Below, in pieces: positions 2,845-21,577 of a DNA stretch of 64,000 nt. The notes under the pieces are model-generated. The model had not been told where the DNA came from. It worked only from the letters and a program-made list of their open reading frames with translations, and did not search any database. Each line of letters begins with the position of its first letter. Position 1 is the first letter of the stretch. A program made the translations under genes and the position numbers. This DNA comes from Rhodanobacteraceae bacterium (lineage in GTDB: Bacteria; Acidobacteriota; Terriglobia; Terriglobales; Acidobacteriaceae). Location of the stretch: positions 1-64,000 of the forward strand of contig JANXWZ010000147.1 in NCBI GenBank assembly GCA_025350865.1, read 5' to 3'.

Positions 2845-3951
2845 GTGAAGATCACGCTCGCTGTTGCCCTACTGTTCGTCGGCACATCCCTGCTGGCCCA
2901 GGCTCCCCCGCCAACCGGTGCTACCCCTCAGGATCTGCTTCAGGGGGAACCCGAAACGCAGCTCCAGGACAGGACTCTTCGACGCCCGGCTTTAGAAGTT
3001 CCGAGCATGACGAATGAGCGTGAGCCGCCGTCGAACATGCAGACAGGTGTGTCTGCCGATCGCTACATTGGCGACGCCACCAAGTCGCCTTCGCGCCAGT
3101 GGCACAACGTGATGTTTACGCAGAACCTGCTGCGCAAAGGCAATCCCGACGCGACCACGCCGGGTGATCCCGGCGCTGTTCTTCGCTATAACAAGTCTCT
3201 CGACCTTGCCACACTTCCGGCTAGAAACATCACGCCACTTACCCAGCTTCCCGACCAGTTTGTCATGTATGTCGAGAGCGGTCAGGGGCGGCTGGACGAC
3301 GGCAAGCAGTATTGGGATTTGCATGAGGGCATTGCAATTCTGATGCCGCCTGATGCGATGCATCGCTTCACCAATACGGGAGCGGAGCCGCTGAAGATGC
3401 TCGTGCTCACCTGCACCATGGACAACGTCACGCCACGCAAGGACATCCTGGTTCGCGATACGAACCTTATGGCGATGAGCGAGCAGAATGTCCACTGGAG
3501 CAACATGAGCAAGTACATCTTCCTCGGGCCCGACGGAATCTCCGAGCAGGATCATGTGCTGCTGGTCTATATGGGGCCGATGACAATCGCCGGGCCGCAT
3601 GCGCATACTCCGCCTCAGGAAGAGATCTGGACGAAGGTGAGCGACGGCCCCGCGCTGATGCAGGTGGGCAGCGAAATTCGCAACTGGACTATGAACATGG
3701 CGGTACTCGCGCCGCCTAACGGCAGGACGGTGCATGCGGCCTCGAACCTGAGCCCCGACAAGATCCAATACTGGTTCTACTTCGGGCGGCTCAACTTTCC
3801 CAACGCGTCACAGCCCGCTCTTGCTCCGCCAGCGCAGGCTGCTGGTGCGGCGCCGCGTGGTCCGAACCCGTTTATTGCTCAGGCTCTGGCACGCTCGACG
3901 GTTGCAGGGAAGGCTCTTGCCTCGCTGCCAGCGGATGCATATCACTGGTAG
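2845..3951 (+). CDS. Secreted two-cupin-domain protein
   Basis: Protein of about 368 residues with an N-terminal signal peptide (hydrophobic residues about 5-20, ending near LLAQA). Two cupin barrels follow. The first, around residues 130-195, has the pattern G-x-L-x-x-G ... P-x-x-x-x-H-x-F but no HxH pair. The second, around 245-310, has GPHAHTPPQEEIW, the expected H-x-H-x5-E type metal site. The start is set at GTG 2845 because GGAG lies 9 bases upstream; the upstream in-frame TTG at 2830 has no ribosome site. It is homologous by layout to each half of the four-cupin protein at 12160-13908, so it probably acts on a related ligand in the periplasm. Substrate and reaction are unknown. No copy of the locus operator was seen upstream. 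Confidence 0.8.
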   Translation: MKITLAVALLFVGTSLLAQAPPPTGATPQDLLQGEPETQLQDRTLRRPALEVPSMTNEREPPSNMQTGVSADRYIGDATKSPSRQWHNVMFTQNLLRKGNPDATTPGDPGAVLRYNKSLDLATLPARNITPLTQLPDQFVMYVESGQGRLDDGKQYWDLHEGIAILMPPDAMHRFTNTGAEPLKMLVLTCTMDNVTPRKDILVRDTNLMAMSEQNVHWSNMSKYIFLGPDGISEQDHVLLVYMGPMTIAGPHAHTPPQEEIWTKVSDGPALMQVGSEIRNWTMNMAVLAPPNGRTVHAASNLSPDKIQYWFYFGRLNFPNASQPALAPPAQAAGAAPRGPNPFIAQALARSTVAGKALASLPADAYHW

Positions 3952-3954
3952 CAG

Positions 3955-5034
3955 TTATGATTTGAAATCCGCAGCGGTATAAGCGTCCGGCTTCCACGAG
4001 GGAATCGCCCAATCCGCGGGAACGGACTCGATCTTGACCGGTGCGCCATTTTTTAACATCTTCGAGTAATAGGCGGCCTGCAGGCAGCGAAACTTCTTGC
4101 GCATCACTTCCATCGGCTGATATAGCGTGCGCTTTTCGAATGTCTTCTGGATATCCATCAACTGACCGAAAAACCTTGTCACGGAGTCCGAGCCGGCCGG
4201 AATGCTGGACGCAACGTTGTACTGTTTGCCGATGATGTTGAAGGAGAAGAGGTCGGTTCCCGCGCCAAGCATGGAGAGGACGAACGGCTTCCGCTTTTCG
4301 GCTGCGGGATAGAAGTAATCGACATTGAGGAATCCCGTCTTCACAACATCATCGGTGTTCATGCTGATGGACTCGACGTCGTAGCCGAGAATCTTCATCA
4401 TCAGGTACGGAATGTGGAAGTGGGGTTCATCGGGAATTTCAGCTGTGGCAAAGGCTCCCAGCACATCGCCCGCTGCCTTGAGCTGACGGATTGCGACGTT
4501 TGCGTGATCGAAGTGTTCGAAGGGAACAGTCGCCATAATCGGCGTGCTGTGCTTGGCCGCGAGATCGAGCATCTCGTCCATGTGGACCAACGTGTCCGAC
4601 CAGTGCCGCTGCAGGAAACTGGGGATTCCGGCCTGAATGTAGGGCCTGAGAACGAGGTGTTGCCAGGGCGAAAGCACGAGATCGCCGACCATAACGGCAT
4701 CTACTTTGCCGACCATGGCGTCGTAGCGATCGACCACTTCACATTCCCACTTGTCGGCAAACGCTTGCGCTTTTTTCTTGTCTTTGTCCCATACGTAGGC
4801 GGGGCGCATACGCAGCAGGTTGGTCTCCTCGTACCTTCCCTTGGGGCTGAGAAGATTGGCCCAGATATCCCAGAACGAATAGTCGAGACCGAGGGCTCCG
4901 ATCTTCATCACAGGAATCGACGTTGCCACCGGCATCAGGGCGGAGGCGCCACTCGTGGTCACCAACGCGGCGGCTGTACCTGCTCCCGCCATTCTCAAAA
5001 AGTCGCGCCTGCCTGGGCGCAAAGTGCTCAACAT
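3955..5034 (-). CDS. Tat-exported Gfo/Idh/MocA-like oxidoreductase
   Basis: Protein of 359 residues with a twin-arginine leader (GRRDFLRMAG, residues 8-17), so it should be exported folded with its cofactor. A Rossmann-like N-terminal half reads KIGALGLD, then DRYDAMVGKVDAVMVGD, as in Gfo/Idh/MocA dehydrogenases that oxidise sugars or inositols with NAD(P). The usual EKP lysine motif is replaced by QRHWSD around residues 142-147, so classical catalysis is doubtful. AAGDVLGAF and the C-terminal YYSKMLKNG-type segment fit the family's second domain. AAGGAG stands close before the ATG at 5034, and a TATAAT -10 is readable on the minus strand (5077-5072). It converges on the two-cupin gene with a 3-base gap. 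Fold call moderate; substrate unknown. Confidence 0.7.
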   Translation of the reverse strand: MLSTLRPGRRDFLRMAGAGTAAALVTTSGASALMPVATSIPVMKIGALGLDYSFWDIWANLLSPKGRYEETNLLRMRPAYVWDKDKKKAQAFADKWECEVVDRYDAMVGKVDAVMVGDLVLSPWQHLVLRPYIQAGIPSFLQRHWSDTLVHMDEMLDLAAKHSTPIMATVPFEHFDHANVAIRQLKAAGDVLGAFATAEIPDEPHFHIPYLMMKILGYDVESISMNTDDVVKTGFLNVDYFYPAAEKRKPFVLSMLGAGTDLFSFNIIGKQYNVASSIPAGSDSVTRFFGQLMDIQKTFEKRTLYQPMEVMRKKFRCLQAAYYSKMLKNGAPVKIESVPADWAIPSWKPDAYTAADFKS

Positions 5035-5113
5035 TGCTGTTCTCCTTTTGTCCGTTCCGTTGACGCCGCCGATTATAGCTGCGAGTCATCGATCAAGAGT
5101 ACGCTCTTCAGGC

Positions 5114-5143
5114 TTGACCTGTATGACAGGACTCTGCTATGTT
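5114..5143 (+). promoter_or_regulatory. Regulon promoter copy 1 with CCTGT-N3-ACAGG operator
   Basis: The -35 is TTGACC (5114-5119) and the palindrome CCTGTATGACAGG occupies 5118-5130, overlapping the end of the -35. The extended -10 is TGcTATGTT, with TATGTT at 5138-5143 after an 18-base spacer. It faces the TIM-barrel gene at 5255. Repressor binding here would exclude RNA polymerase. The same architecture recurs five more times in the next 12 kb. Confidence 0.8.
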
Positions 5144-5254
5144 TCCGCCTGATTGTGAAGGCCTTTTTTCGTCTCTCCGCAGAATTATTGCTTGACCACA
5201 TAGCCATCCCCGGCACTGCCTGCAGTTCATGAAAATGGAGAATCATCAAGCGCT

Positions 5255-6322
5255 ATGACACTATCTCGACGTGATTTTTTTGCAAGTGCAGGAGCTGCTG
5301 CAGGCGCGCTGGTTGCACCATCTGAGCTTGGCGCCCAAACGCCCAAGGCGTCTAAAGTGGCAGGATTGCCTCCGGTCTGGGGTGAGGATTTTCTGTATCA
5401 GTGGAGCCCGCCGGAGAATGTGAAACGCGATCTCACTCCGGGGCCAAATGTTATCCGGCTGAGCAACAGCGTGGACATCACCAACCGTGAAGGCACGGAT
5501 TATGACGAGATGTTCAAAACCATGCGCGCCGGCGGTTGGACTGCCTGTGAGGCTGCGTCCGCAGGATGGCTGAGCAGGACGATGCCTGATTCTGAAATCA
5601 CGGAAATGAAGAAGCAACTCAAGGCTAATGATGTTTACTTCTACAACATCCATTGCGCCGGCAATATCATCGCCCCGGGCTCGGAGGCCGAGCAGTGGCA
5701 GCGGCACATCGTCGACGCGATCAATTCTGCGGACGCCTGCGGCTGCAAGATGGTACTCACCCACACAGGCAGCATGTTTCCCGGCCGGGACCGCGCACAC
5801 CCGCTGAACTGGAGCAAGTATGCGTGGGAGAGGTCAGTTACTGCGCTGAAGAACATCTGCAAGGCGACTGCGGGCAGCAAAATACTGATCGGCATTGAAC
5901 CGGTGAACACCGAGGCAATCAATAATCCGTGGGCGATGAAGCGACTGCGGGACGATGTTGGCGATCCGCGCATCGTGTGCGGCCTTGATATCACCAACAT
6001 GGTCAACGCGGGCGTGGCCTTCCGGATGACGGAGCTGATGAACACGACCTTCGAGCTGCTGCATGGAATGATCGGTTATATCCACGCCAAGGACTATGTG
6101 TGGGACCAGATGCTGCCGGGCATGGATTGGGCGATGAACGGCACGGGCAACATGGACTACGAGGTTTTTCTCGCTCACATCAGCCGGATGACGGATCCGA
6201 TCATGTACGTGGAGTTCCTGAGCTCTGCTGAGGAATATCAGCAGGCGCAGCGGAATATCCGAGCGATCGCCAGCAAAATCGGAGTCAAAATACACGGTAC
6301 CCAGCAGCCGCTGCAAGCGTAG
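5255..6322 (+). CDS. Tat-exported TIM-barrel protein, sugar isomerase/epimerase superfamily (copy A)
   Basis: Protein of 355 residues with Tat leader LSRRDFFAS. The body matches the xylose-isomerase-like (AP_endonuc_2) TIM barrel. Likely metal or acid-base residues sit at strand ends: NIHCAGN, LTHTGSM, GIEPVN, GYIHAKD and MYVEFLSS. Members isomerise or epimerise sugars, or cleave oxidised glycosides. Export is unusual for the family and implies a periplasmic unphosphorylated substrate. It is almost identical to the protein at 15612-16682. The gene begins an apparent operon with the small secreted protein at 6369 and the transporter at 6981, driven by the promoter at 5114. The fold is secure; the reaction is inferred only. 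Confidence 0.82.
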   Translation: MTLSRRDFFASAGAAAGALVAPSELGAQTPKASKVAGLPPVWGEDFLYQWSPPENVKRDLTPGPNVIRLSNSVDITNREGTDYDEMFKTMRAGGWTACEAASAGWLSRTMPDSEITEMKKQLKANDVYFYNIHCAGNIIAPGSEAEQWQRHIVDAINSADACGCKMVLTHTGSMFPGRDRAHPLNWSKYAWERSVTALKNICKATAGSKILIGIEPVNTEAINNPWAMKRLRDDVGDPRIVCGLDITNMVNAGVAFRMTELMNTTFELLHGMIGYIHAKDYVWDQMLPGMDWAMNGTGNMDYEVFLAHISRMTDPIMYVEFLSSAEEYQQAQRNIRAIASKIGVKIHGTQQPLQA

Positions 6323-6368
6323 ATGGCGTGTGAACGAGAAGTAGACCGAAGAGGATGAGAACAGCCCT

Positions 6369-6935
6369 ATGAGAAAACTCCTGATGCTTGGCATGCTCTT
6401 CCTGCCGACGCTGGCAATCGCCGCCCAACCGGACTTCAGTGGCACCTGGGCCCGGGACGCAGCTAACAGTGACCGTGTGCCCGATCTGGCGTACTGGATG
6501 ACCAGGGTGGCTCCTACCCCTCCGAGGGCGGGTGGCGGACAGCGCCCGGTCCCGGTTGTGCTGCTTACGGTCCATCAGGATGCAAAAGGCTTGAAGGTCG
6601 TCGACCCACAAAGCGCGATCCACGAATACACGCTGGAGAGCGACGGCGGTACGCACACCAAGACGATGGACACGGGTATTCAGAAGGCCCAGGTCACTGC
6701 GAAGCTACAGGGAGATACCCTGGTGATCGAGACCTCTGAGCCGTTTGGCGGCATGCCCGGGAACGTTACTTTGAAGGTCAAAGAAGTATGGTCCCTCTCG
6801 CCCGACGGTAAGTCGTTGACCATCGTTACGACGCGAGACATCCCGGCGAGACATCAGGAATATAAGCAGGTATACACGCAGACCAAGGATCAGCCGGGCA
6901 CGATCTGCTCCGATGGATGCGTTGTTCCCAAGTAA
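6369..6935 (+). CDS. Small secreted protein with FSGTW motif (copy A)
   Basis: Protein of 188 residues with a Sec signal peptide ending near AIAAQ. The mature part opens with PDFSGTWARD, the lipocalin/START-like beta-barrel opening seen in many acidobacterial secreted proteins. It continues as alternating beta-strand-like segments such as VTLKVKEVW and TIVTTRD. A paired cysteine motif CSDGC closes the chain. It lies 46 bases after the TIM-barrel gene, and its paralog at 16719 lies equally close behind the paralogous TIM-barrel gene, so the two products probably work together, perhaps as a substrate-binding or accessory subunit. No enzymatic motif recognised. Confidence 0.65.
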   Translation: MRKLLMLGMLFLPTLAIAAQPDFSGTWARDAANSDRVPDLAYWMTRVAPTPPRAGGGQRPVPVVLLTVHQDAKGLKVVDPQSAIHEYTLESDGGTHTKTMDTGIQKAQVTAKLQGDTLVIETSEPFGGMPGNVTLKVKEVWSLSPDGKSLTIVTTRDIPARHQEYKQVYTQTKDQPGTICSDGCVVPK

Positions 6936-6980
6936 GCTCCATACCGTCTACTCATCTCTTACAGGGAGGAAGGTTCACCC

Positions 6981-8309
6981 ATGACCAGCGCTCCCGGAGA
7001 CACTATGTCCGATGCCATTTCGGCTCCACGCCCTGCACGGATCCGATATTTTCTTTGCGCGTGGCTGTTTGTACTGAGTGCGATCTCGTTCTTCGACCGC
7101 ACCAACATTTCTATTGCCGCTCCCCAACTGAGCCATGAGTTCGGTTTGGGCAATCAGCAACTCGGCTGGGTCTTCTCTGCCTTCCTTGTCGGCTATGCCA
7201 GTTTCCAGATTCCTGCAGGGATGCTCGCTGTGCGCTTCGGGCCGCGACGGATGCTCGCCGGAGGGGTTGTGGTCTGGGCGCTGTGCAACGTGCTGACGGC
7301 ACTACTGCCGCCCGGCTTTGCCCACGCGGTCATCCTGCTGTTCGCTGTGCGCTGCGCACTGGGAGTGGCAGAGGCCGGCATCTATCCAGCCGCGAACCAA
7401 TTCGTCGCTCGGTGGGTCCCCCAGAGGGAGCGCGGGTTCGTCAACGGACTCATCTTTGCCGGGATTGGGGCGGGTAGCGGCCTGGCACCGCCGCTGCTGA
7501 CGTGGATCATCCTGAGCCACGGATGGCGTTCGGCCTTCTGGTTCGATGCTGTGCTCGGTGTCTTCGGCGCCACGGTCTGGTGGATCATCGCACGCGATCG
7601 CCCCGAAGATCACCCCCGCATCAGTGCCGCCGAGAAGGAGGAGATTCGCCAGGGCCTCACCTCGTTTGCCAACACGGCTGGCGCAGCCCACGTGAAGGAC
7701 CGCAGCATCTCGTGGCGCGTCATGTTCTCGCGGATCGACCTTCCCGCGCTGATGCTCAGCTACTTCGCCCTGGGTTACACGTCGTGGGTCTTCTTCAGCT
7801 GGTTCTTCCTCTATATGGCGCAGGCGCGTGGGTTGAACCTCAAGACCAGCGCCGAATTCACCATGATGCCCTTTGCGTGCATGACCGTCTTTTGCCTGAG
7901 CGGAGGCTTTACCTCGGACGTGCTCACCCGCAAACGCGGGTTGCGCGTCGGCCGATGCTTTCTGGCGTCGGTGTCGATGTTGCTCACCGCAATCTTTCTG
8001 GTGGCCGGGTCACGTGTGCCGGATGCCTTCACCGCCGCAATTCTGCTGTCGCTGGGAGCGGGGTGCCTCTACTTTGGGCAGAGTGTCTTCTGGTCTGTCT
8101 CCACCGACCTGGCCGGCAAGAACTCGGGTGTGTTTTCGTCGATCATGAATATGAGTTGCCAGATCGGCGGGGCATTGACAGCCTCACTCACACCCTGGCT
8201 GGCGGCGCGCTACGACTGGAAAATGCCGTTTTCCGTTGCCGCCACGCTGGTTCTGCTGGGATCCCTGGCGTGGCTTCTGGTGCATCCTGAGAGACCGCTC
8301 GAAGTATAG
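6981..8309 (+). CDS. MFS transporter, anion:cation symporter family
   Basis: Protein of 442 residues with about 12 membrane segments. It has the FDRTNISIAAP motif at the end of helix 1 and FGPRRMLAGG between helices 2 and 3. Both are typical of the ACS family that imports glucarate, galactonate, hexuronates and related organic anions with protons. AGGGAGG lies about 9 bases before the ATG at 6981; the next ATG, MSDAIS, is a weaker alternative. It sits downstream of the TIM-barrel/secreted-protein pair and should carry the product of periplasmic processing across the inner membrane. The family call is good; the cargo, probably an acid sugar, is inferred. Confidence 0.88.
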   Translation: MTSAPGDTMSDAISAPRPARIRYFLCAWLFVLSAISFFDRTNISIAAPQLSHEFGLGNQQLGWVFSAFLVGYASFQIPAGMLAVRFGPRRMLAGGVVVWALCNVLTALLPPGFAHAVILLFAVRCALGVAEAGIYPAANQFVARWVPQRERGFVNGLIFAGIGAGSGLAPPLLTWIILSHGWRSAFWFDAVLGVFGATVWWIIARDRPEDHPRISAAEKEEIRQGLTSFANTAGAAHVKDRSISWRVMFSRIDLPALMLSYFALGYTSWVFFSWFFLYMAQARGLNLKTSAEFTMMPFACMTVFCLSGGFTSDVLTRKRGLRVGRCFLASVSMLLTAIFLVAGSRVPDAFTAAILLSLGAGCLYFGQSVFWSVSTDLAGKNSGVFSSIMNMSCQIGGALTASLTPWLAARYDWKMPFSVAATLVLLGSLAWLLVHPERPLEV

Positions 8310-8318
8310 GCGTTGACG

Positions 8319-8348
8319 TTGACCTGTATAACAGGCGTTTGCTAGACT
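8319..8348 (+). promoter_or_regulatory. Regulon promoter copy 2
   Basis: The -35 is TTGACC (8319-8324), palindrome CCTGTATAACAGG (8323-8335), extended -10 TGcTAGACT with the hexamer at 8343-8348 and an 18-base spacer. It starts 9 bases after the transporter stop and faces the cytochrome c gene at 8390. Confidence 0.8.
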
Positions 8349-8389: not shown

Positions 8390-8767
8390 ATGAAGTTCAA
8401 TGCATGGTCGCTCATGTTACCGTTGGCCGTAGGGGTTCTGCTTGTACCCGCGAGTTCGTATCGCGGTGTCGCACAGCAGGCGCCGCCCGCTGCCAAGGAA
8501 GAGCTGCCGGCCGGTCCGGGCCGCGATCCATTCCTGCGCATCTGCACGGGCTGCCACGCCGCCTCCGTGGTCACATCTGAGCGCCATACCGCAGGGAGCT
8601 GGTCGAACATCATTGACGCAATGCGTGCACGCGGAGCCAACGGTTCCGACGACGATATGGACAAGATCACAGACTGGCTCGCGGCTAATTACCCGCCCAA
8701 ACCAGAGCCGGACAAGCCGCCGCCGCCTGCTCTCTGGCGCTGGAACTACTTATCAAAGAATCGATAA
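8390..8767 (+). CDS. Small exported mono-heme cytochrome c
   Basis: Protein of 125 residues with a signal peptide (hydrophobic residues about 7-22). One heme-binding CTGCH motif lies at residues 52-56, and a candidate distal methionine in the DDDMDKITDWL helix. The layout resembles the small cytochrome c subunits that accept electrons from periplasmic dehydrogenases. The quinoprotein dehydrogenase encoded at 10147 has no heme domain of its own and shares the same promoter type, so it is the obvious electron donor (inference). The Pro-rich tail, residues about 103-115, is unusual. The 3' end overlaps the convergent gene by 22 bases. Confidence 0.85.
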   Translation: MKFNAWSLMLPLAVGVLLVPASSYRGVAQQAPPAAKEELPAGPGRDPFLRICTGCHAASVVTSERHTAGSWSNIIDAMRARGANGSDDDMDKITDWLAANYPPKPEPDKPPPPALWRWNYLSKNR

Positions 8768-9786
8768 CGGATCGTCCAATCCTGACTGGCACCAGGGGCG
8801 ATGTGAATATGAATGTATGCCTCGGGTGCGATCACGGTCGGAACTGACCAGAAATTGATACTGGCGAGCGGGGAATCGCTCGTCTGCTCCACGCCAACGC
8901 CGGTCTTCATGTTCTTTACGATGAAGTCGTAGTCAGAGGGACTGCTGGAGAAGCCGGTGATGCCACTTTGGACTGACTGCCGCTCCTGCAGCTCGCTGTG
9001 ATAGACGAGGTCGCGCCCAACCAGTTCGCCACCGTTCGCAAGCGCACGGGTCGCTGTTGGCGTGAACGCAAAGTGGACGGACAGGTCGGGACCGGTGGTT
9101 ACGTTATCCAGCCGAAAGAAGTCGTGATCGTAGACGTCGGTGTCGATTGTCTTGGTGCCGGTATTTTTCATGTGGTGGTGGATCGCCAGTACCGGCGAAC
9201 CTTTTTCCAACTCGAGCGTCTTGGTGTAGTCGTACCCATAGCCAACCGGAGAAGTCAGGCTCTGCGTGATGGCGACCTCGTTTGGCTTGGCCTTGAAGCT
9301 CCACTTGCCGTGATCGACGATCGGGTAAGGCGTTGAAAACTTATACGGTGCATCATCCAGTCTGCGCAAAACACCGACACCCGGCTTGACAAACAGATCG
9401 CCCGCCTTGGCGTCTTCAAAACCAAGCGGCGCCTTGGACTCGAGCGAATTGAATTCTTCCACCGGTCCGGCCAGTGCATCGTGACCCATGGGGTCGTGGG
9501 TCGGCCGCCACGGGTTGAAGTATGTGTGTCCATCATAGGAGAGGCAGGGAATGACGCCGGACCAGTCGAAACGTGAGCCGCGGTACCAACCCTTGTCAGC
9601 ATCCGGAAGATCGATGAGTGCGTGGACCGATCTGTTGGAGATGGATACCTGTGGCACATCGGTTGAAATCTGGCTGGCGCAGGGGTCGGGAGCTTTTTGT
9701 GAGCTGTTGGCCTGGGCCGACGCTGCCGGCCCTAGAAGCGACGTGCTGAAAACCGCAAGCGATGCGCAAACGCAGATAGCCTTCAA
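8746..9786 (-). CDS. Secreted protein, probable galactose-mutarotase-like beta-sandwich
   Basis: About 346 residues. The start is placed at TTG 9786: GGAGG lies 8 bases before it, and translation from there gives a clean signal peptide KAICVCASLAVF...ASA. The upstream ATGs would add a polar tail in front of the leader. The mature protein has the run of beta strands, aromatic and histidine residues (AIHHHMKNTG, YDHDFFRLD, FNPWRPTHDPMGHD) seen in aldose-1-epimerase-like folds, but no family signature I can name with certainty. It is expressed from its own copy of the regulon promoter, so a role in the same pathway as the dehydrogenase and lactonase is likely, for example ring opening or binding of a sugar. 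Function uncertain. Confidence 0.6.
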   Translation of the reverse strand: MKAICVCASLAVFSTSLLGPAASAQANSSQKAPDPCASQISTDVPQVSISNRSVHALIDLPDADKGWYRGSRFDWSGVIPCLSYDGHTYFNPWRPTHDPMGHDALAGPVEEFNSLESKAPLGFEDAKAGDLFVKPGVGVLRRLDDAPYKFSTPYPIVDHGKWSFKAKPNEVAITQSLTSPVGYGYDYTKTLELEKGSPVLAIHHHMKNTGTKTIDTDVYDHDFFRLDNVTTGPDLSVHFAFTPTATRALANGGELVGRDLVYHSELQERQSVQSGITGFSSSPSDYDFIVKNMKTGVGVEQTSDSPLASINFWSVPTVIAPEAYIHIHIAPGASQDWTIRYRFFDK

Positions 9787-9861
9787 TTCCATCTCCTCCA
9801 TTGCTTTCAAAATGGCGTTCATTGAAAGCAATGCTTAATCTTGTTTCCTAAGGAAAGACAC

Positions 9862-9891
9862 ACACTAGCACTATCCTGTTAGACAGGTCAA
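9862..9891 (-). promoter_or_regulatory. Regulon promoter copy 3 (minus strand)
   Basis: Read on the minus strand: TTGACC (9891-9886), palindrome CCTGTCTAACAGG (9887-9875), 18-base spacer, then TGcTAGTGT with the hexamer TAGTGT at 9867-9862. It faces the mutarotase-like gene that starts at 9786. Confidence 0.8.
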
Positions 9892-9980: not shown

Positions 9981-10010
9981 TTGACCTGTTCAACAGGGGT
10001 CTGCTACGCT
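9981..10010 (+). promoter_or_regulatory. Regulon promoter copy 4
   Basis: TTGACC (9981-9986), palindrome CCTGTTCAACAGG (9985-9997), 18-base spacer and extended -10 TGcTACGCT with the hexamer at 10005-10010. It drives the dehydrogenase/four-cupin/lactonase genes. Confidence 0.8.
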
Positions 10011-10146
10011 TCCGTCTCGATTCATGTTCTGTAGGTTTGCCTCATATAGGCAAAAGGTGGGCAGGTTCTCAGCGGACCTTTAGTTCGCGCGAGTCTCCGC
10101 GGAAGCGTTGTTTCAATCAGTGGTTATCTCCTGGAGGTTCATCAGT

Positions 10147-12108
10147 ATGGGTTTACGTGGGCGCGTGGTTGGCGGGGTTTCATCGATCTTTCTTTGTGTC
10201 GCAATGACCAGTTTTGGGCAAGCCCCGCGTGTTGCACAACCAGGCGGCGATTGGCCGATGTATGGCCATGACGGCGCCAGCACACGCAATTCGCCCCTGA
10301 CCCAGGTCACTCCGGAGAACGTCAGCAAACTGAAGAGGGCGTGGACGTTTCACATGTCACCGACGAGGCCCGAGCCTGCTGCCCCAGCCGCCCCTGCTCG
10401 TCCAGGCAACGGTGGCGCGCCTGCGGGAGGTGCTCGCGTCCGCGCACGGAGAAGTGAGGCGTCGCCACTGATGATCGATGGCGTCCTCTACCTGCCGACC
10501 CCGTTCAGCCGCGTGATTGCGCTGGACGCGATCACGGGCAAGCAGATATGGGAATATCAGTTGGCCAACTTCGACAATGCCTCGACGCGCGGAGTGGCCT
10601 ACTGGCCGGGCGACGGGAAGAAGCTTGGGCCGCGCATCGTCTTTGGCACTGCCGCTGGCTCGCTGATCGCTCTGAACGCCAAGACCGGCAAGCCTGCTGA
10701 AGGTTTCGGCGCCGACGGTATCGTCGATTTCAAAGAAGGCGTCTCGAACGGGTTCAAGTCGCAAATCGGCATGAGCTCGCCGCCCTCTATTTACAAGAAT
10801 GTAATCATCACCGGTATACGTGTCCAGGAGCAGCCTGCGCTCGGCCCTTCGGGCGATACGCGTGGCTGGGATGTGGTGACCGGCAAGCTGCTGTGGACGT
10901 TCCACACGGTCCCGCGGCCGGGTGAGGAGGGCATTGAGACGTGGATGACGCCCAATTCCTGGAAGAACCGTTCGGGCACCAACGCCTGGGGATTCCTGAG
11001 TGTGGATCAGGAAACGGGGACAGTCTTCGTCCCGATTGGTGGGGCTTCGCAGGATGAGTACGGCGGCGACCGCAAGGGTGCGGATCTCTACAGCCAGACG
11101 CTCGTCGCTCTGGATGCGTTGACCGGCAAGAAGAAGTGGCACTTTCAGATGATCCACCACGACACGTGGGATTACGACTTCGGCGGCGCGCCGATTCTGG
11201 CCAAAGTTCACCGTGGGACGGAGACCATTCCGGTCGTCGTGCAGACCAATAAGACAGGTCTGGTTTGGATTCTTGATCGCCGCGATGGCACCCCGATCTA
11301 CGGCGCAGAAGAGCGCCCGATTCCGGCGAGCGACGTGCCGGGTGAGGACTCGTGGAATACCGAGCCGTTCCCGCAGAAGCCGGCGCCGCTCTCGCGGATG
11401 ACCTTCAAGAAGGAGGAACTGGCGCAAGTGTCGGCGGAGCACACAAAGGCTTGCGAGGAATTCTTCACGAAGTGGCCGACAACCCATAATGATGGGCCGT
11501 TTACGCGCTATGGAATGCAGCCTTCGGTCGTATTCCCGGGTACGTGGGGCGGTTCGAACTTCCAGGGTGGAACCTACGATCCGAAGACGAACCTTATCTT
11601 TTACAACGTGAACGACTACGCGGATTACGGCCAGATGGTGGCTACGGCTCCGGGGTCGTCCCTGCCGTACGAGCGCAAGGGGCCGCTGGGCGGGAAGTAC
11701 GACCGCTTTGCCGACCCGAAGACGGGCTGGCCCTGCCAGGCTCCGCCGTGGGGTGAGTTGGTTGCCCTGAATGTGGATACAGGGGAGTACGTCTGGCGCC
11801 AACCGTTCGGGACCATTCCCGAACTGGAAGCCAAAGGCGTCATGAACACCGGTTCGCTGAATATGGGTGGCGGAATGACGACTGCTTCCGGTCTGCTCTT
11901 TATTGCGGCGACTCCTGATATGCACTTCCGCGCCTTCGAGGAGAAGACCGGAAAGATGTTATGGGATACAACGCTGGAAGCCGCCGGGGCCAATTCTCCC
12001 ATCACTTACAGGGGCAAGGATGGCAAGCAGTACATCGTGATCATCGCTACCGGTGGCGCCTTCGGCCAAAGCAGCGGAGACGTCGTGGCGGCATACGCGT
12101 TGCCGTAA
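10147..12108 (+). CDS. PQQ-type quinoprotein dehydrogenase, beta-propeller
   Basis: About 653 residues with a signal peptide ending near SFGQA. The mature protein begins WPMYGHDGASTRNSPL, the standard opening of PQQ-dependent alcohol/glucose dehydrogenases, and has repeated propeller W-motifs (KQIWEYQL, GKLLWTFHT, KKKWHFQMIHHDTWDYD, GEYVWRQPF, GKMLWDTTLE). Near the C-terminus it has the family's GGMTTASGLLFIAATPD. It has no C-terminal cytochrome domain. The start is ATG 10147, with GGAGG 9 bases upstream; an earlier in-frame TTG lacks a site. It likely oxidises an alcohol or sugar in the periplasm and passes electrons to a cytochrome such as the one at 8390. A Pro/Ala-rich insert near residues 75-100 is unusual. 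Substrate unknown. Confidence 0.88.
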   Translation: MGLRGRVVGGVSSIFLCVAMTSFGQAPRVAQPGGDWPMYGHDGASTRNSPLTQVTPENVSKLKRAWTFHMSPTRPEPAAPAAPARPGNGGAPAGGARVRARRSEASPLMIDGVLYLPTPFSRVIALDAITGKQIWEYQLANFDNASTRGVAYWPGDGKKLGPRIVFGTAAGSLIALNAKTGKPAEGFGADGIVDFKEGVSNGFKSQIGMSSPPSIYKNVIITGIRVQEQPALGPSGDTRGWDVVTGKLLWTFHTVPRPGEEGIETWMTPNSWKNRSGTNAWGFLSVDQETGTVFVPIGGASQDEYGGDRKGADLYSQTLVALDALTGKKKWHFQMIHHDTWDYDFGGAPILAKVHRGTETIPVVVQTNKTGLVWILDRRDGTPIYGAEERPIPASDVPGEDSWNTEPFPQKPAPLSRMTFKKEELAQVSAEHTKACEEFFTKWPTTHNDGPFTRYGMQPSVVFPGTWGGSNFQGGTYDPKTNLIFYNVNDYADYGQMVATAPGSSLPYERKGPLGGKYDRFADPKTGWPCQAPPWGELVALNVDTGEYVWRQPFGTIPELEAKGVMNTGSLNMGGGMTTASGLLFIAATPDMHFRAFEEKTGKMLWDTTLEAAGANSPITYRGKDGKQYIVIIATGGAFGQSSGDVVAAYALP

Positions 12109-13908: not shown

Positions 13909-13988
13909 GAAACGTTTGCTGATCTTTGAGCGCAGCGATGTCAGTCGCACGACCGACAGCAGGCAATGAACCTGGGAGATATTCAGCA

Positions 13989-15035
13989 ATGAAGTTGATG
14001 GCAACGAATTCGATTGTCGTTCTGGCGAGTGGACTGGTTCTGGCCTGCGCCGTACCGGCTTTCGGACAGATGGCCGTTCACGAAGCGGTTGCTTCCGCAA
14101 AGATTGTTCGCAAGTCGCCGGCTCTCGACGCGTTGATCGCGCCGGATATAAAGATTGAAAAAATCGCTACCGGCTTCCTCTGGACGGAAGGGCCCATGTG
14201 GCGCAAAGGTGCTCTCTGGTTTAGCGATCTGTCCGGCAACAAGATGTACAGCCTTACGCCGGATGGCAAGCTGAAGGTGCAACTAGACAAGGCGGGCGGA
14301 CTGCAGAGCTTTCCGGCGGGTGGCTACGGCGGCTCGAATGCGATGGTCGCCAACAAGGATGGCTCGGTCTTGATGATGCAGCACGGCATGCGTCGCATTG
14401 TGCAGCTGGACGACAAGATGAACGTGAAGCCGTTGGTGGACATGTATCAGGGCCAGCCGTTCAACAGCCCGAATGACCTGGTTTTTACTGCAGATGGCGC
14501 GCTGTATTTCACCGACCCACCGTACGGCTTTTATGATCCGAGTGCGCCCGATAAGGATCCGGACAAAGACCCTCGCCATCTCAACAAGATCAATGGCGTG
14601 TACCGGCTAAAGGATGGCAACCTGACTGCGGTCATCACCGATTTGCCGCGTCCCAACGGCCTCGCTTTCTCCAAGGACGGTAAGACCTTCTACGTTTCCA
14701 ACTCGCAGAACCCGCAAGCGATCTACAAGTACGATGTCACACCCGATGGCGCTTTGGTCAATCGGCAGGTGTTCGCCGATCTGAGCAAGGAACCAGGGGA
14801 TGGGAACCCGGACGGGATGAAAGTGGACTCGCAAGGGAACCTCTGGGCTTCGGGTCCGGGCGGCTTCCGCATCTTTTCACCGAAGGGCCAATTGCTCGGC
14901 CAGATTGTTCTGCCTGAGGTCACGTCCAACCTGGCGTGGGGCGGGGATGACGGCATGACGGCTTACTTCACGGCCGCAACAAGTATCTACAAGATTCAAG
15001 TCAAGATTCCCGGTCAGCTCCCGGTGTACCACTGA
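13989..15035 (+). CDS. SMP-30/gluconolactonase-family protein, secreted
   Basis: About 348 residues with a signal peptide ending near PAFGQ. It is a six-bladed propeller of the SMP-30/LRE lactonase type: TEGPMWRKGALWFSD carries the metal-binding glutamate, NSPNDLVFTADGALYFTDPPYG the metal asparagine and aspartate, then LPRPNGLAFSKDG and GNPDGMKVDSQGNLW. Members hydrolyse sugar or other lactones using a divalent cation. The start is ATG 13989, with GGGAGA 9 bases upstream; the longer form from 13926 would precede the leader with a polar extension. It is the third gene after the promoter at 9981. A lactone produced by the quinoprotein dehydrogenase is the natural substrate (inference). Confidence 0.87.
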   Translation: MKLMATNSIVVLASGLVLACAVPAFGQMAVHEAVASAKIVRKSPALDALIAPDIKIEKIATGFLWTEGPMWRKGALWFSDLSGNKMYSLTPDGKLKVQLDKAGGLQSFPAGGYGGSNAMVANKDGSVLMMQHGMRRIVQLDDKMNVKPLVDMYQGQPFNSPNDLVFTADGALYFTDPPYGFYDPSAPDKDPDKDPRHLNKINGVYRLKDGNLTAVITDLPRPNGLAFSKDGKTFYVSNSQNPQAIYKYDVTPDGALVNRQVFADLSKEPGDGNPDGMKVDSQGNLWASGPGGFRIFSPKGQLLGQIVLPEVTSNLAWGGDDGMTAYFTAATSIYKIQVKIPGQLPVYH

Positions 15036-15040: not shown

Positions 15041-15070
15041 TTGACCTGTCCGACAGGTTTCTGCTATGGT
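15041..15070 (+). promoter_or_regulatory. Regulon promoter copy 5
   Basis: TTGACC (15041-15046), palindrome CCTGTCCGACAGG (15045-15057), 18-base spacer and extended -10 TGcTATGGT with the hexamer at 15065-15070. It begins 5 bases after the lactonase stop and faces the cupin at 15140. Confidence 0.8.
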
Positions 15071-15139
15071 TCGTCTGCTTATCGATGACCCGCTTTATTG
15101 ATTTCCTATAGAACGACAGCCCAAGAAAAGAGGATGGAA

Positions 15140-15547
15140 ATGTCTACGGAATTGCCAGTTGCCAGTGCGGAAGAGTTCAAGAAACGCGTAATCCATCAGC
15201 CTGATCTACCACCCACTGAGCTCGTCGCAGGCTCCAACTCCCGGCTGGTTGTCGGTGAGCAAGCGATGATCAGCTTCCTGAAGATGGACGCTAATTCCTA
15301 CTTTGCGCCGCACTCCCATCCGCAAGAGCAGATCATGATCGTCCTCGAGGGATACTGCGACGAGATCATTGAAGGCAAGCTGTATCGGGTTCAAAAAGGA
15401 GATGTCATCATTCTTCCGCCGCATGTGGTTCACGGTGCATATATCCGCGACGTAGACGTTTACGCGATCGACATCTTCGGCAGTCCACGCGGCGACTACA
15501 TGATGAAGATGATGCAGAACATGGTAGCCATCCACGCGCAGAAGTAA
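15140..15547 (+). CDS. Single-domain cupin, KdgF-like
   Basis: About 135 residues, with no signal peptide, so probably cytoplasmic. One cupin barrel with the complete metal site HSHPQEQ, then EGKLYRVQKGDVIILPPHVVHGA. The C-terminal IDIFGSPRGDYM recalls the closing motif of KdgF, which helps linearise unsaturated uronates to 2,5-diketo-3-deoxygluconate. AGAGG lies 6 bases before ATG 15140; an ATG two codons earlier is possible. It is first in the unit with the second TIM-barrel/secreted-protein pair. Resemblance to KdgF is motif-level only; another small cupin isomerase is possible. Confidence 0.72.
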   Translation: MSTELPVASAEEFKKRVIHQPDLPPTELVAGSNSRLVVGEQAMISFLKMDANSYFAPHSHPQEQIMIVLEGYCDEIIEGKLYRVQKGDVIILPPHVVHGAYIRDVDVYAIDIFGSPRGDYMMKMMQNMVAIHAQK

Positions 15548-15611
15548 GTTCAGGAACTAACCGTACCAGGCACGGCATGTAATTCGTGAAGATGGAGAAT
15601 GGTAGAGCGCT

Positions 15612-16682
15612 ATGACACTATCTCGACGCAAATTTTTTGCAGGGGCGGGGGCTGCGGCGAGTGCACTGGCGACAAGCTCACCTTCCAAGGCCTCCGCCCA
15701 GACTTCCGGAATGGTCAAAGAAGTTGGCCTGCCTCCCGTATGGGGTGAGGATTTTCTCTATCAGTGGAGTCCTCCGGAAAATGTCAAACGAGATCTGACT
15801 CCGGGCGCTGGAGTCATCCGGTTAAGCAACAGCGAGGACATCACGAACAAGGAAGGTACGGACTATGCCTCCATGTTCAAGACCATGCGCGCTGGTGGCT
15901 GGACGGCATGTGAGGCTGCGTCGGCGGCGTGGCTGAGCAGGAAGATGCCCGACTCTGAAGTCACCGAGATGAAGGCGCAACTGAAGGCCAACGACGTGCT
16001 GTTCTACAACATTCACTGCGCCGGCAACATCATTGCTCCCGATCCGGACGCGGAGATGTGGCAGAAGCATATTATCGATGCGATCCATTCTGCGGATCAG
16101 TGTGGTTGCAAGATGATCCTCACCCACACGGGCAGTATGTATCCCAACCGGAATATTGCGCATCCCCTGAACTGGAGCAAGCAAGGGTGGGAGCGGTCGG
16201 TCAAGGCGCTCAAGAACATCTGCAAGTCCACGGCGGGCAGCAAGATTTTGATTGGCATCGAACCGGTGAATACGGAGGCCATCAATAATCCATGGGCGAT
16301 GAAGCGTCTGCGGGACGATGTTGGCGACTCACGGATCGTGTGCGGCCTCGATATTCAGAACATGGCCCACCCCGGCGTCGCCTTCCGCATGACGGAGTTG
16401 CTGAACACCACATTCGAGCTGCTGCACGGCATGATCGGTTACATCCACGCCAAGGATTTTGTCTGGGACCAGATGTTACCCGGCCTGAGCTGGGCGATGA
16501 ACGGCACAGGCAATATGGACTACGAAGTCTTCCTCGCCCACATCAGCAGGATGCCGGACCCGATTATGTATGTTGAATTTCTGAGTTCTTCCGAGGAGTA
16601 TCAGCAAGCACAGCGGAATATACGGGCCATCGCCAGCAAAATTGGGGTCAAGATACACGGCACGCAGTCAGCTCTCGCATAA
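15612..16682 (+). CDS. Tat-exported TIM-barrel protein, sugar isomerase/epimerase superfamily (copy B)
   Basis: Protein of 356 residues with Tat leader LSRRKFFAG. From GLPPVWGEDFLYQW onward it is nearly collinear and mostly identical to copy A at 5255-6322, including every candidate active-site motif (NIHCAGN, LTHTGSM, GIEPVN, GYIHAKD, MYVEFLSS). Divergence is concentrated in the leader and in a few surface positions. Nucleotide similarity extends upstream over the ribosome-binding region (GATGGAGAATnnnnnAGCGCTATGACACTATCTCGACG), which points to a DNA-level duplication. It lies 64 bases after the cupin gene and 36 before its own small secreted partner. Confidence 0.82.
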   Translation: MTLSRRKFFAGAGAAASALATSSPSKASAQTSGMVKEVGLPPVWGEDFLYQWSPPENVKRDLTPGAGVIRLSNSEDITNKEGTDYASMFKTMRAGGWTACEAASAAWLSRKMPDSEVTEMKAQLKANDVLFYNIHCAGNIIAPDPDAEMWQKHIIDAIHSADQCGCKMILTHTGSMYPNRNIAHPLNWSKQGWERSVKALKNICKSTAGSKILIGIEPVNTEAINNPWAMKRLRDDVGDSRIVCGLDIQNMAHPGVAFRMTELLNTTFELLHGMIGYIHAKDFVWDQMLPGLSWAMNGTGNMDYEVFLAHISRMPDPIMYVEFLSSSEEYQQAQRNIRAIASKIGVKIHGTQSALA

Positions 16683-16718
16683 GTCGAGTGCACGATGTAA
16701 GAGGATGAGAACAGTCTT

Positions 16719-17282
16719 ATGAAAAAACAACTTCTGATGCTTGGCATGCTTTTGCTGCCGACTCTGGCCCTGGCAGCCACTCCTGACTTTAGCGGGACCT
16801 GGGCGCGGGACAACGCCACCAGCGACCCCGTCCCAAATCTGATGTACTGGATGACCCGCGTAGCCCCAGCCGCTGCCAGGGGCGGCGGTGGTGGGCAGCG
16901 CACACCCCAGGTGATCCTGACCATTCATCAGGATGCCAGGACGCTGCACGAAGCGGAGTCCCAAAGCATCGTGCGCGATTACATTCTGGACGGCAGTCCC
17001 CACCACCGTGCTTCCGACACTGGAATCCAAAAGGCTGACGTGACTGCCCAACTGCAGGCAGATAACCTGGTGATCGAGACTACCGGACCCTATGGGGGGA
17101 TGCCTGGGAACGTAACGCTGAAGGTGAAAGAAGTATGGTCGCTCTCGCCCGACGGGAAGACCTTGACGATCCTTACAACGCGGGACGTTCCCGCACGACA
17201 CCAGGAGTATAAGCAGGTCTACACACGGACGCAGGCCCAGCCCGGCGCTATGTGTTCCGCTGGCTGCGTAACTCCGAAGTGA
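16719..17282 (+). CDS. Small secreted protein with FSGTW motif (copy B)
   Basis: Protein of 187 residues with a signal peptide ending near LALAA. It is a clear paralog of 6369-6935: both have PDFSGTWARD, YWMTRVAP, a Gly-rich stretch, PGNVTLKVKEVWSLSPDGK and a C-terminal double-cysteine motif, here CSAGC. It is the last gene of its unit and a hairpin terminator follows. No known catalytic motif; accessory or binding role inferred from its constant pairing with the TIM-barrel gene. Confidence 0.65.
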   Translation: MKKQLLMLGMLLLPTLALAATPDFSGTWARDNATSDPVPNLMYWMTRVAPAAARGGGGGQRTPQVILTIHQDARTLHEAESQSIVRDYILDGSPHHRASDTGIQKADVTAQLQADNLVIETTGPYGGMPGNVTLKVKEVWSLSPDGKTLTILTTRDVPARHQEYKQVYTRTQAQPGAMCSAGCVTPK

Positions 17283-17360: not shown

Positions 17361-17497
17361 GCTGTTTCCAGCGGTCATTTCGCCCGAACGACAGGGCCCC
17401 GGCGACACGCTGGATGCGTCAAAATTTATTCCTCATGATGTATGTCGGCATTGCGGATGTTCCGTCTGGAAGTCTTTGGGGTCATTTTTTAAACGTC

Positions 17498-17527
17498 TTG
17501 ACCTGTTATACACGTGTGTGTTAATGT
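17498..17527 (+). promoter_or_regulatory. Regulon promoter copy 6 (diverged half-site)
   Basis: TTGACC (17498-17503), CCTGTTATACACG (17502-17514) with the right half changed from ACAGG to ACACG, 18-base spacer and extended -10 TGtTAATGT with the hexamer at 17522-17527. It faces the TonB receptor. The weaker operator may allow basal receptor synthesis (inference). Confidence 0.72.
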
Positions 17528-17728
17528 CTCGTCCGATCACTACACCCACAGGATTCGGTGCGGAAATAGTTGGACCGTCGTTCAGATTTGGCCGTCATCA
17601 ATGAATCAAGGGGCCCTAGTTGTAAATCAATCGAACCGCATGAAGAGTTTGGATACAAAAACGTACCACCTCGGGAGTCTTGGTCGTAACCAACACTTCA
17701 CTTTCGAACTTACTTTAGGAGAAGCCAA

Positions 17729-20700: not shown

Positions 20701-21577
20701 GCAGTTTGGAGCCAATTACACCTGGGCGAAAGCAACCGGCATTGTCGGCAACGCCGGCACCCAGACGTTTGCGGAATCGCAGCAGGGCAACAGCTCGGCT
20801 CCTACAGGCGGTATCGATTACGTCAACCTCCAGAACAATCACGCGCTGATTGACTATGACGTTGCCAACCGTTTCGTCCTCAATGGCTCCTATGCCCTGC
20901 CGTTTGGCAAAGGTAAGTACTTCGGTTCGAACCAGATTGCCAACGTGTTCATCGGCGGCTGGTCAACGACTGCGGCCCTCACCATCCAGGGTGGTATGCC
21001 CTTTGGTCCTAGCTGCACCACACAGACCAACACGGTCACCGGTACCCTCAACGGCCGCTGCAATCGGGTAGCCGGGCAACCGCTCGCGCTTCCTGACAGC
21101 GCGCAGCGTTACTACAACGGCACCGAAACTCTCACGCTTCCGAGTGGCCGTACCATCACGCCGCCCGTCAACACCTTCATGAAGTGGAACCCGGATGCAT
21201 GGACTGCACCCACGGTGACCTTCGCAAACGGCGGGGTTGCGCTTGACCAGTACGTTCTCGGCACCTCTGCCCTAACCTACGGAAATATGCGGACGCCTGG
21301 GGTTCAGAACCTGAATCTCTCGGTAATCAAGCGGTTCCCGATCACCGAAGGCGTAAGCTTTGACCTCCACGTCAATGCCACCAACGCGCTGAATCACGCC
21401 AATCACCAGTTCGTGAACAACGCTGGCTTGACTGCGAACAACATCGTTCAGGCGAACACGTCCACCAAGACAGGAGCTCCGCCGATCGGTGCAAACAACA
21501 ACTCCGGTTTCGGCGGCTGGGGACTCTCGAATCTCGAGAATCGTCAGCTGACCATCCAGGCGAACTTCACCTTCTAA
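17729..21577 (+). CDS. TonB-dependent receptor with carboxypeptidase-regulatory-like domain
   Basis: Outer-membrane protein of 1282 residues. Signal peptide to about residue 28 (PLFAQ). A carboxypeptidase-regulatory-like Ig-fold domain follows (about 30-120: ITGTITDPTGAVLPNVMVTV through GRYTVTVAATGF). Next come a plug-like region (about 120-260, SVEVKADALTIQTENAQVSD) and a long Oar-type beta-barrel ending in the terminal-Phe strand QLTIQANFTF. AGGAG precedes the ATG at normal spacing. Such acidobacterial receptors take up oligosaccharides or other large substrates with TonB energy. It is the last gene of the operator-linked locus, so it probably imports that pathway's substrate. A strong terminator follows. 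Confidence 0.92.
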   Translation: MKKLKIAGRVFLVFLLALATEARPLFAQVKSSAITGTITDPTGAVLPNVMVTVTEQETNTTTTAQSDSKGEYSVPYLPLGRYTVTVAATGFRTYRKTDINLAGATTVRADILMAVGTATQSVEVKADALTIQTENAQVSDAVSAETITGQANLNGNSLYFATLESGVIGDPQQLSGSSLGVGYADRRNMSGMRINGGEIGSNDVQLDGISIQGAAWHETAVLPNSDALSEVRVTTNNFTADTGMAQGVVSQTTKNGTNKFHGDVNFMLRNEDLNANTFSFKHQLAACSTVACRASFARATYRVLQGGGSIGGPVIIPKLYNGTNKLFFFGSFLRLTHTQATTFQATVPTGLERLGDFSQTLIKGNSGAPVNVNIYDPFSATPYNGSSTQFVRKQYVNNKVTNPNQYGLAILQGYPVPTSTGQDAYHTNNFTNNVVAPEAKNSFNGRLDFKPRDNQSIFFSAGISNGYITNPNNWGTLANGGWVNQVGQGDVIDKNPYAAIGDTIVLNATTVIDVRYGVTHINTQSQVRSAKGDPSAYGQPSFVSGVASFGSGILPGVPAIAPYTALSSNSFGNKKEHQLNHFVTGSLNKVKGNLTMKFGAEYRVYLQNYADIQWQSPPLGVNNYSGQYGSSNGLNVTALEPLNENQGFLPASIAAGVEGWQLNVGSGPVLAIASKYVGMYAQNSWRPTSKWLLSFGIRYDIQPGPTERYNRMASFDTTRANPFVTGTVGSPAGNLGYLTFPGVDGYSRNLYETSWNSFAPRIGATYQLTNNIVLRGGFGRNYLPSNTGFNANTTIYDPVAFDFAVNAIPYGLSPAGLPVGTFNQATNTYVVPGAGATQAAANYGGTGSVTIFNRNDYKTGHTDQWNFFIEQQLSSTWLFNAGYVGSKSGTLPWRGFPLNGPFAVAPATLQAWRASWVASNGVTDPATARVTNPISALVGKASGDSGGATISAMESQEPYVSLLNDTNFRSVGSSAYHAFVAKVQHSTSHGLQFGANYTWAKATGIVGNAGTQTFAESQQGNSSAPTGGIDYVNLQNNHALIDYDVANRFVLNGSYALPFGKGKYFGSNQIANVFIGGWSTTAALTIQGGMPFGPSCTTQTNTVTGTLNGRCNRVAGQPLALPDSAQRYYNGTETLTLPSGRTITPPVNTFMKWNPDAWTAPTVTFANGGVALDQYVLGTSALTYGNMRTPGVQNLNLSVIKRFPITEGVSFDLHVNATNALNHANHQFVNNAGLTANNIVQANTSTKTGAPPIGANNNSGFGGWGLSNLENRQLTIQANFTF

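Follow-up and report, generated by a model that had tools for sequence, protein, structure and literature searches.

A probable GntR-controlled regulon of exported oxidative enzymes in a member of the Acidobacteriaceae

What holds together a run of genes whose products nearly all seem to leave the cytoplasm, and what might such a run be for? The run in question comprises fourteen genes, lying between a tRNA-Leu gene (2587–2673) and about 21.6 kb in the window, i.e., the whole stretch of 64,000 nucleotides that was analysed (contig C90, positions 1–64000) from an acidobacterial genome of 4.78 Mb in 246 contigs that is 99.8% complete. Here, G followed by a number denotes a genome (G000 being the present one), C a contig and L a locus piece. 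Most likely, a single predicted regulon is divided between two operon groups, the window locus being one of them, and is repressed by a GntR-type regulator with an FCD domain that is encoded on another contig, C45. The best reading of its purpose, which we hold with slightly better than even confidence, is that an aldose would be oxidised in the cell envelope to a lactone and an acid, that the acid would be imported, and that an Entner–Doudoroff-type cleavage would follow.

The argument for common control begins with a promoter element, TTGACCTGTnnnACAGG, which is present in six copies in the window, each over a −35 box:

5114–5130, + strand: element 1, exact match, facing the genes for a TIM barrel (TIM1), small protein A1 and a major facilitator superfamily (MFS) importer; a TAnnnT box lies 18 bp on
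8319–8335, + strand: element 2, exact match, facing the cytochrome c gene
9875–9891, − strand: element 3, exact match, facing the mutarotase-like gene; the same divergent geometry is found in G445, there with 1 mismatch
9981–9997, + strand: element 4, exact match, facing the genes for a pyrroloquinoline quinone (PQQ) dehydrogenase, a quad-cupin and an SMP-30 protein
15041–15057, + strand: element 5, exact match, facing the genes for a small cupin, a second TIM barrel (TIM2) and small protein A2
17498–17514, + strand: element 6, 1 mismatch, facing the receptor gene

With up to two mismatches allowed, 0.36 copies would be expected in the window, and none of 100 shuffled windows reached six. An earlier account made from the letters of the DNA (the sequence-only reading) had proposed six shared promoters, five facing enzyme and transporter genes and one facing the receptor, and this arrangement was recovered in full. 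From 24 to 64 kb no further match with up to 2 mismatches was found; the bicupin gene at 2830/2845 has no element upstream even at up to 4 mismatches, and the divergent Gfo/Idh gene could share only the element at 5114.

In the whole genome, there are eight exact matches to TTGACCTGTnnnACAGG and one with one mismatch, and these are found in two places only: the window locus (five exact and the one with a mismatch) and C45 (three exact, at 14789 on the − strand, 18544 on the − strand and 18828 on the + strand). The reversed pattern, which served as the genome-wide control, gave one exact match. Allowing up to two mismatches gave 21 matches, of which the 12 with two mismatches are noise, because the reversed control gives 34 at that looseness. 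Thirty sites from the present genome and from G334, G347, G276, G503, G445 and G831 were aligned, an alignment that is not unbiased, because its rows were picked for adjoining cluster genes. TTGACC is present in 29 of the 30, followed at 17 or 18 bp by a TAnnnT-like box, and a palindrome, CCTGTnnnACAGG, covers the −35 box and the spacer, a geometry that would suit a repressor. The repressor site is thus proposed to overlap the −35 box and spacer of each promoter.

Which protein could bind there? Around the three sites of C45 are genes for a GntR regulator with an FCD domain (L032, 16435–17208), a mutarotase-like protein (paralogous to that of the window, 214 bits), a bicupin, an MFS protein of TIGR00893 type, a PF04199 cyclase with a signal-like N-terminus, and a SnoaL protein; C45 also encodes a GH106 alpha-L-rhamnosidase and a protein of the dienelactone hydrolase family. 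The window proteins examined include no FCD regulator, and the one GntR-like protein of the window (43860–45011) reads, as judged by eye, as a LacI-fused type; the window locus is therefore probably controlled in trans. It is likely that the sequence-only reading saw only half of the system, the probable regulator and a second operon set being on another contig. The C45 GntR scores below the cut-off of every named NCBIfam regulator that it matched (best NanR, 105 against a cut-off of 260), and the palindrome is its predicted operator. In having GntR and FCD domains and a GT-N3-AC core in the palindrome, the pair resembles the FCD-type GntR regulons for sugar and other acids (NanR, UxuR, ExuR, LldR, GlcC); we take this core to be typical of the FCD subfamily. 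No paper describing the operator, the regulon or the gene set was found in the literature, in a search that mostly did not cover subscription journals.

If the pair is real, regulator and element should travel together. Exact sites were sought in a class sample of 399 genomes and an order sample of 397, which overlap and both include the present genome. There were 22 matches in 9 genomes in the class sample (reversed control 13 in 12, as counted from the matches listed) and 20 in 9 genomes in the order sample (reversed control 5 in 5). Cluster homologues surround the sites in G334, G276, G347, G503, G468 and G445. Five of these six relatives have a relative of the GntR (G445, 312 bits; G334, 295; G503, 282; G347, 176; G276, 173), as opposed to none of three genomes without an exact site, where the best match was 62 bits in G376, 49 in G349 and 65 in G026. 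Exact single matches in G161, G379, G210, G328, G082, G474, G591 and G627 were set aside as chance, no cluster homologues being present in the stretch examined (14.9–20 kb; 3 kb for G379, G210 and G082). The co-regulation that the sequence-only reading had asked for is thus favoured, at the level of sequence, by the promoters of both loci and by the comparison across genomes.

The genes themselves also travel together, in agreement with the conserved neighbourhood for which that reading had called. Six C45 proteins recur together in G334 and G445, members of two other genera, with 59–85% identity (pairwise among the three: mutarotase-like 65–69%, bicupin 65–79%, GntR 59–65%, MFS 70–73%, cyclase 70–72%, SnoaL 71–85%). 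The gene order in the two relatives is bicupin, mutarotase-like, Oar receptor, GntR, (PQQ in G334), PfkB kinase, 2-keto-3-deoxy-6-phosphogluconate (KDPG) aldolase, MFS, (cytochrome c in G334), SnoaL, cyclase; the kinases are 70% and the aldolases 76% identical between them, and the palindrome also precedes the kinase gene, with 3 mismatches to a longer pattern in G334 and 1 in G445. A decaying relative of the window locus in G445 (L091, C72, 8157–13114) has a long PQQ frame whose enzyme is 85% identical, along with fragmented mutarotase-like and quad-cupin genes, and keeps two divergent sites in the same place. The cytochrome c has relatives preceded by the element in G334 and G503 and, in G445, close to the PQQ gene; an SMP-30 gene stands behind a 1-mismatch site in G276. 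In a locus from a metagenome-assembled genome (MAG), L030, the cupin–TIM–A′ set and the PQQ, SMP-30 and quad-cupin genes occur together without the element.

A wider count was made for 27 loci of the mutarotase family, with eleven partner classes sought within 8 kb on either side (1–24000 for the window). The partners were PQQ-type enzymes at 8 loci, berberine-bridge-type (BBE) oxidases at 3, SMP-30 at 2, PF10282 lactonases at 3, MFS at 8, Oar receptors at 10, cytochrome c at 5, cupins at 7, cyclase at 3, GntR at 4 and TIM barrel at 1, and none of the eleven classes was found at five control loci (chance motif matches, used at whole length), which make up a small set. These counts are low, because the MFS and cytochrome of G334 and the lactonases of G349 lie on other pieces and the C41 cluster of G445 was left out. 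Two of the three PQQ queries were PQQ–cytochrome fusions, so the PQQ mark for G347, where nothing matches the PQQ enzyme of the window, may be a cytochrome match only. PQQ repeats are common in the genome (37 matches to PQQ_2), so linkage to PQQ alone means little, and it is the conserved order and the shared element that carry the argument. At one distant relative (L074, 10123–12033), an UnbV/ASPIC FG-GAP protein adjoins the mutarotase-like gene, and similar-looking frames stand beside it in L075 and L127.

What, then, do the genes encode? Their positions and families are as the sequence-only reading had listed them, with Pfam in support of the catalogue:

2830–3951, + strand: exported bicupin; start probably GTG at 2845; Pfam Cupin_2, 40.6 bits; 216 bits to the C45 bicupin, a paralogue
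3955–5034, − strand: twin-arginine Gfo/Idh-like protein; Pfam score 21.5, below the cut-off of 24
5255–6322, + strand: twin-arginine AP_endonuc_2 TIM barrel 1 (TIM1); Pfam 77.7 bits; 84% identical to TIM2
6369–6935, + strand: exported small protein A1; no Pfam family; relatives in 5 of 399 class genomes, its own included
6981–8309, + strand: MFS importer of sugar-acid (TIGR00893-like) type; PF07690 (MFS_1), 206.5 bits; TIGR00893, 243 bits, below the cut-off of 395
8390–8767, + strand: exported monohaem cytochrome c; one CxxCH
8746–9831, − strand: exported mutarotase-like protein of an uncharacterised family; no Pfam family or solved relative
10108–12108, + strand: quinoprotein (PQQ) dehydrogenase with a propeller of glucose/quinate type; PF01011, 609 bits over the full model; TIGR03074, 441 bits, below the cut-off of 833
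12160–13908, + strand: exported quad-cupin (two bicupin repeats); relatives in 7 of 399 class genomes, its own included
13926–15035, + strand: exported SMP-30/gluconolactonase-family protein; PF08450, 160 bits; best solved relative 3e5z, a putative gluconolactonase
15098–15547, + strand: small cupin, here without a signal; generic cupin families only
15612–16682, + strand: twin-arginine AP_endonuc_2 TIM barrel 2 (TIM2); Pfam match to AP_endonuc_2; 84% identical to TIM1
16719–17282, + strand: exported small protein A2; paralogue of A1, 70% identity
17729–21577, + strand: Oar-type (TonB-dependent-like) outer-membrane receptor; PF25183, 478 bits; CarboxypepD_reg

A hydrophobic or twin-arginine N-terminus (called from hydropathy and a pair of arginines only, not by signal-peptide prediction) is found in 12 of the 14 products, the receptor included, the exceptions being the small cupin and the MFS membrane protein, which agrees with the claim that nearly all are exported. 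A TIM barrel gene, a gene for a small exported protein and their upstream DNA form a duplicated cassette (5201–6933 and 15558–17280; 74–79% identical over ungapped stretches). The Gfo/Idh-like gene does have a twin-arginine start, whereas its Pfam match falls short; the mutarotase-like gene does appear to encode an exported protein, whereas neither a Pfam family nor a solved structure could be attached to it, the only weak matches being to YidC periplasmic-domain models (E 0.0018; one of seven family members at E 0.17).

The quinoprotein has a signal-like N-terminus and, at residue 350, the sequence HHDTWDYD, which we take to be the catalytic aspartate motif; no membrane or haem domain was found in it, the membrane part of TIGR03074 being unmatched. 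The gene for the SMP-30 protein, whose two best solved relatives are both named gluconolactonases, is third in the run behind element 4, which places a predicted exported lactonase within the same regulon. Within the quad-cupin, one half can be aligned to the other, and the bicupin to either, which confirms the earlier count of six cupin barrels over two exported proteins; both named records in which the quad-cupin has a relative are uncultured Acidobacteriaceae/Acidobacteriia MAGs. An alignment of 12 bicupins shows no variation at H243, E250, E251 and H288, all in the C-terminal cupin, which would presumably fit a metal site. Against solved structures, the bicupin profile matched 13 cupin sequences of various names, BacB and DddK amongst them, indicating no single function. 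The small cupin had been called KdgF-like and given a step inside the cell, a proposal that finds no backing: it matches generic cupin families only, and its relative in L030 has a signal-like N-terminal stretch. Profile searches for solved relatives gave one chance-level match for the TIM barrels and none for the mutarotase-like family, which 16 genomes (its own included) carry in a phylum-wide sample of 396, and structure predictions were unusable (mean pLDDT of 31 for the mutarotase-like protein alone and 40.5 for a TIM barrel with three sequences). Several enzymes of the locus thus belong, as far as sequence can place them, to no characterised family.

From the gene set, the element at two loci, its conservation with the regulator, and the kinase and aldolase linked in two relatives, all of which are observed, we infer every reaction and the substrate of the following scheme. 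The Oar-type receptor would carry a sugar or glycoside through the outer membrane, and exported glycosidases (GH106 on C45) would trim it. The quinoprotein would oxidise the free aldose at C1 to a lactone, passing electrons to the monohaem cytochrome, with the mutarotase-like protein perhaps providing the right anomer; the SMP-30 lactonase would open the lactone, and the MFS protein, from a family of acid transporters, would take the sugar acid inside. In G334 and G445, a kinase of 2-keto-3-deoxy-sugar-acid type and KDPG aldolase would cleave the acid to pyruvate and glyceraldehyde 3-phosphate. The cupins, TIM barrels, cyclase and SnoaL protein would probably isomerise or dehydrate the acid, which is the weakest part of the scheme. 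The periplasmic route of the sequence-only reading is consistent, in comparative context, with these steps as regards oxidation to a lactone, hydrolysis and acid import, whereas its isomerisation or cleavage step found no specific support.

Several observations favour this sugar-acid route. A quinoprotein of glucose/quinate type and an SMP-30 lactonase stand in one run. PF10282 lactonases are found in the clusters of G376, G349, G040 and G187 (a partial match in G187), and FAD_binding_4/BBE oxidases in those of G159 and G187; BBE sugar oxidases act at C1. Related clusters would thus swap enzymes (two lactonase folds, two oxidase folds) while the predicted roles stay. The MFS proteins of the window and of C45 both score best, below cut-off, to the D-galactonate transporter subfamily (TIGR00893). 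The G334 kinase scores 243 of 700 to the KDPG aldolase/sugar kinase fusion and 146 of 440 to 2-keto-3-deoxygluconate/galactonate (KDG/KDGal) kinase, and the KDPG aldolase passes the TIGR01182 cut-off in G334 and the PF01081 cut-off in G445; linked as they are, the two suggest where the carbon goes.

The kinase and the TIM barrels could also be read as parts of a cyclitol route, in which the quinoprotein would oxidise a ring polyol (inositol- or quinate-like), the exported cyclase would hydrolyse a cyclic diketone, and the PfkB kinase would act on the opened acid. In inositol catabolism, IolE/IolO have roles like those these TIM barrels would take, and IolB a role like that of the cupins. AP_endonuc_2 TIM barrels and cupins are indeed present, TIGR03074 is a glucose/quinate/shikimate family, and against IolC the G334 kinase reaches 103 bits (cut-off 300); according to the part of PMC10470551 available, the cyclase family includes a retro-Claisen C–C hydrolase of a cyclic 1,3-diketone. 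However, that kinase lies nearer to the KDG type, its scores to the fusion and to KDG/KDGal kinase being higher, and the aldolase next to it is Eda rather than of IolJ type, while the SMP-30 and PF10282 lactonases and the GH106, GH29 and GH10 neighbours indicate sugars, so that we regard a cyclitol substrate as improbable. The passages available of the inositol precedent (PMC3750489) do not describe the enzymes.

Envelope oxidation of sugars at another carbon is known from the 3-keto-glycoside and 3-ketolactose pathways (PMC9007349, as far as the part available goes). Here, envelope oxidation of glycosides would take place at C3 and exported lyases or hydrolases would cleave them, with the TIM barrels and the Gfo/Idh-like protein in the second step. 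The window does encode twin-arginine TIM barrels and a Gfo/Idh-like protein, and 3keto-disac_hyd (DUF1080) proteins stand beside PQQ genes in two related clusters (G276 and G155). Unlike in those pathways, no DUF1080 protein or GMC/LacA-type dehydrogenase was found among the proteins scanned from the window and C45 (no genome-wide search was made), and C3 oxidation leaves no place for the lactonases or KDPG aldolase; it is quite improbable. This reading and a quinate one were considered first, and the lactonases, GH106 and KDPG aldolase argue against both.

The GH106 gene and the cyclase of C45 would also suit catabolism of a flavonoid or phloroglucinol type, the rhamnosidase freeing a polyphenol, the bicupin cleaving it, and the cyclase and beta-keto acid cleavage enzymes (BKACE) degrading the phloroglucinol ring. 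BKACE genes are found in G376 and G349, and a cyclase-family hydrolase with a BKACE-family lyase belongs to the anaerobic phloroglucinol set, going by the available part of PMC10470551. Among the clusters examined, though, cyclase and BKACE are in different genomes, and the reductase, cyclohydrolase, dehydrogenase and triacetate lyase of that set were not found together; the cyclase has its signal-like N-terminus, and the KDPG aldolase, lactonases and mutarotase-like proteins would go unexplained. Such a pathway is very unlikely.

The sugar-acid route has its own difficulties. Kinase and aldolase were found in neither locus of the present genome, being seen only in the clusters of G334 and G445, and the cyclase, the SnoaL protein, the TIM barrels and the six cupin barrels are all superfluous to simple oxidation of an aldose. 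Phosphorylation at C6 is at odds with rhamnose or another 6-deoxy sugar, which cannot be the substrate in G334 and G445 if the kinase acts there. The BKACE near the G376 and G349 clusters does not fit; much of the gene set persists in these two genomes although the element is missing, and the regulation is therefore not universal. In G468, whose genome is 92% complete, a site is present without a close GntR (67 bits), and at 8 of the 27 loci counted for the mutarotase family all eleven partner classes are absent within 8 kb. As to the sugar, the hints vary: C45 has GH106 and G187 a GH29 fucosidase; GH10 occurs in G302, and what looks like the beginning of a similar protein in G276; and the MFS gene of G349 adjoins one for a hydrolase nearest to 2,4-didehydro-3-deoxy-L-rhamnonate hydrolase (352 of 500). 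Since they differ between genomes, the substrate may vary. In the neighbourhood of the G155 cluster there is a Tat-type protein of the enolase superfamily, for which galactonate dehydratase is the nearest match (267 of 311).

On the boldest reading, exported cupins, cyclase and SnoaL protein would together complete dehydration before import, and the sugar acid taken up would be of 2-keto-3-deoxy type rather than an aldonate, a variant that we consider unlikely. Between the bicupin and cyclase genes of G334 and G445 there are a kinase and an aldolase but no dehydratase (in the clusters only; one may be present elsewhere in these genomes), and the 2-keto-3-deoxy acid may therefore be made outside the cytoplasm. 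In G445 (L148, 944–2563), a twin-arginine protein of the MmgE/PrpD dehydratase superfamily, with the N-terminus DRRELLKLGAGAVG, adjoins the bicupin; an exported member of this superfamily would, to our knowledge, be unusual. We know of no assignment of cupin, cyclase or SnoaL families to extracytoplasmic Entner–Doudoroff dehydration. If true, this would be an extracytoplasmic upper Entner–Doudoroff route with new enzyme functions.

Oxidation of sugars by quinoproteins in the envelope is classic, and pseudomonads combine periplasmic PQQ glucose dehydrogenase, gluconolactonase, gluconate import and the Entner–Doudoroff pathway. The proposed aldose route shares with them a quinoprotein of the glucose/quinate family, a lactonase of the gluconolactonase family and a predicted acid-type MFS protein, along with, in two relatives, the KDG-type kinase and KDPG aldolase. 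It differs in that the quinoprotein is without a membrane domain and the cytochrome c is separate, and in having the mutarotase-like family, bicupin, quad-cupin, twin-arginine TIM barrels, exported cyclase, SnoaL protein, Oar receptor and FCD GntR operator. The overall design is familiar; it is set apart by the gene set, the regulator–operator pair and the uncharacterised families. The main text of a Granulicella omics paper, in the part available (PMC7074687), does not mention PQQ, quinoprotein, lactonase or cupin.

A compact regulon with a likely regulator and operator is thereby offered for families that lack a function: the mutarotase-like proteins, exported bicupins, exported cyclase and twin-arginine TIM barrels. 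We know of no role for most of the PQQ_2-matching quinoproteins of this genome, one of which gains a testable pathway whose starting point is defined by the receptor and whose end point is defined, in two relatives, by the KDG-type kinase and KDPG aldolase.

Two observations lie apart from these subjects. BKACE genes stand near PQQ, bicupin or mutarotase-like genes in two element-free genomes (L045, 1036–2055; L048, 6859–7845). In the window, the part from 24 to 64 kb reads as genes of sucrose/fructan type and for surface polysaccharide, named, apart from the proteins scanned, from reading their translations; within it, 24628–51670 forms a region of its own, with what look like glycosidases for sucrose, fructan and trehalose, the GntR/LacI-type regulator (43860–45011) and a group of FG-GAP proteins.

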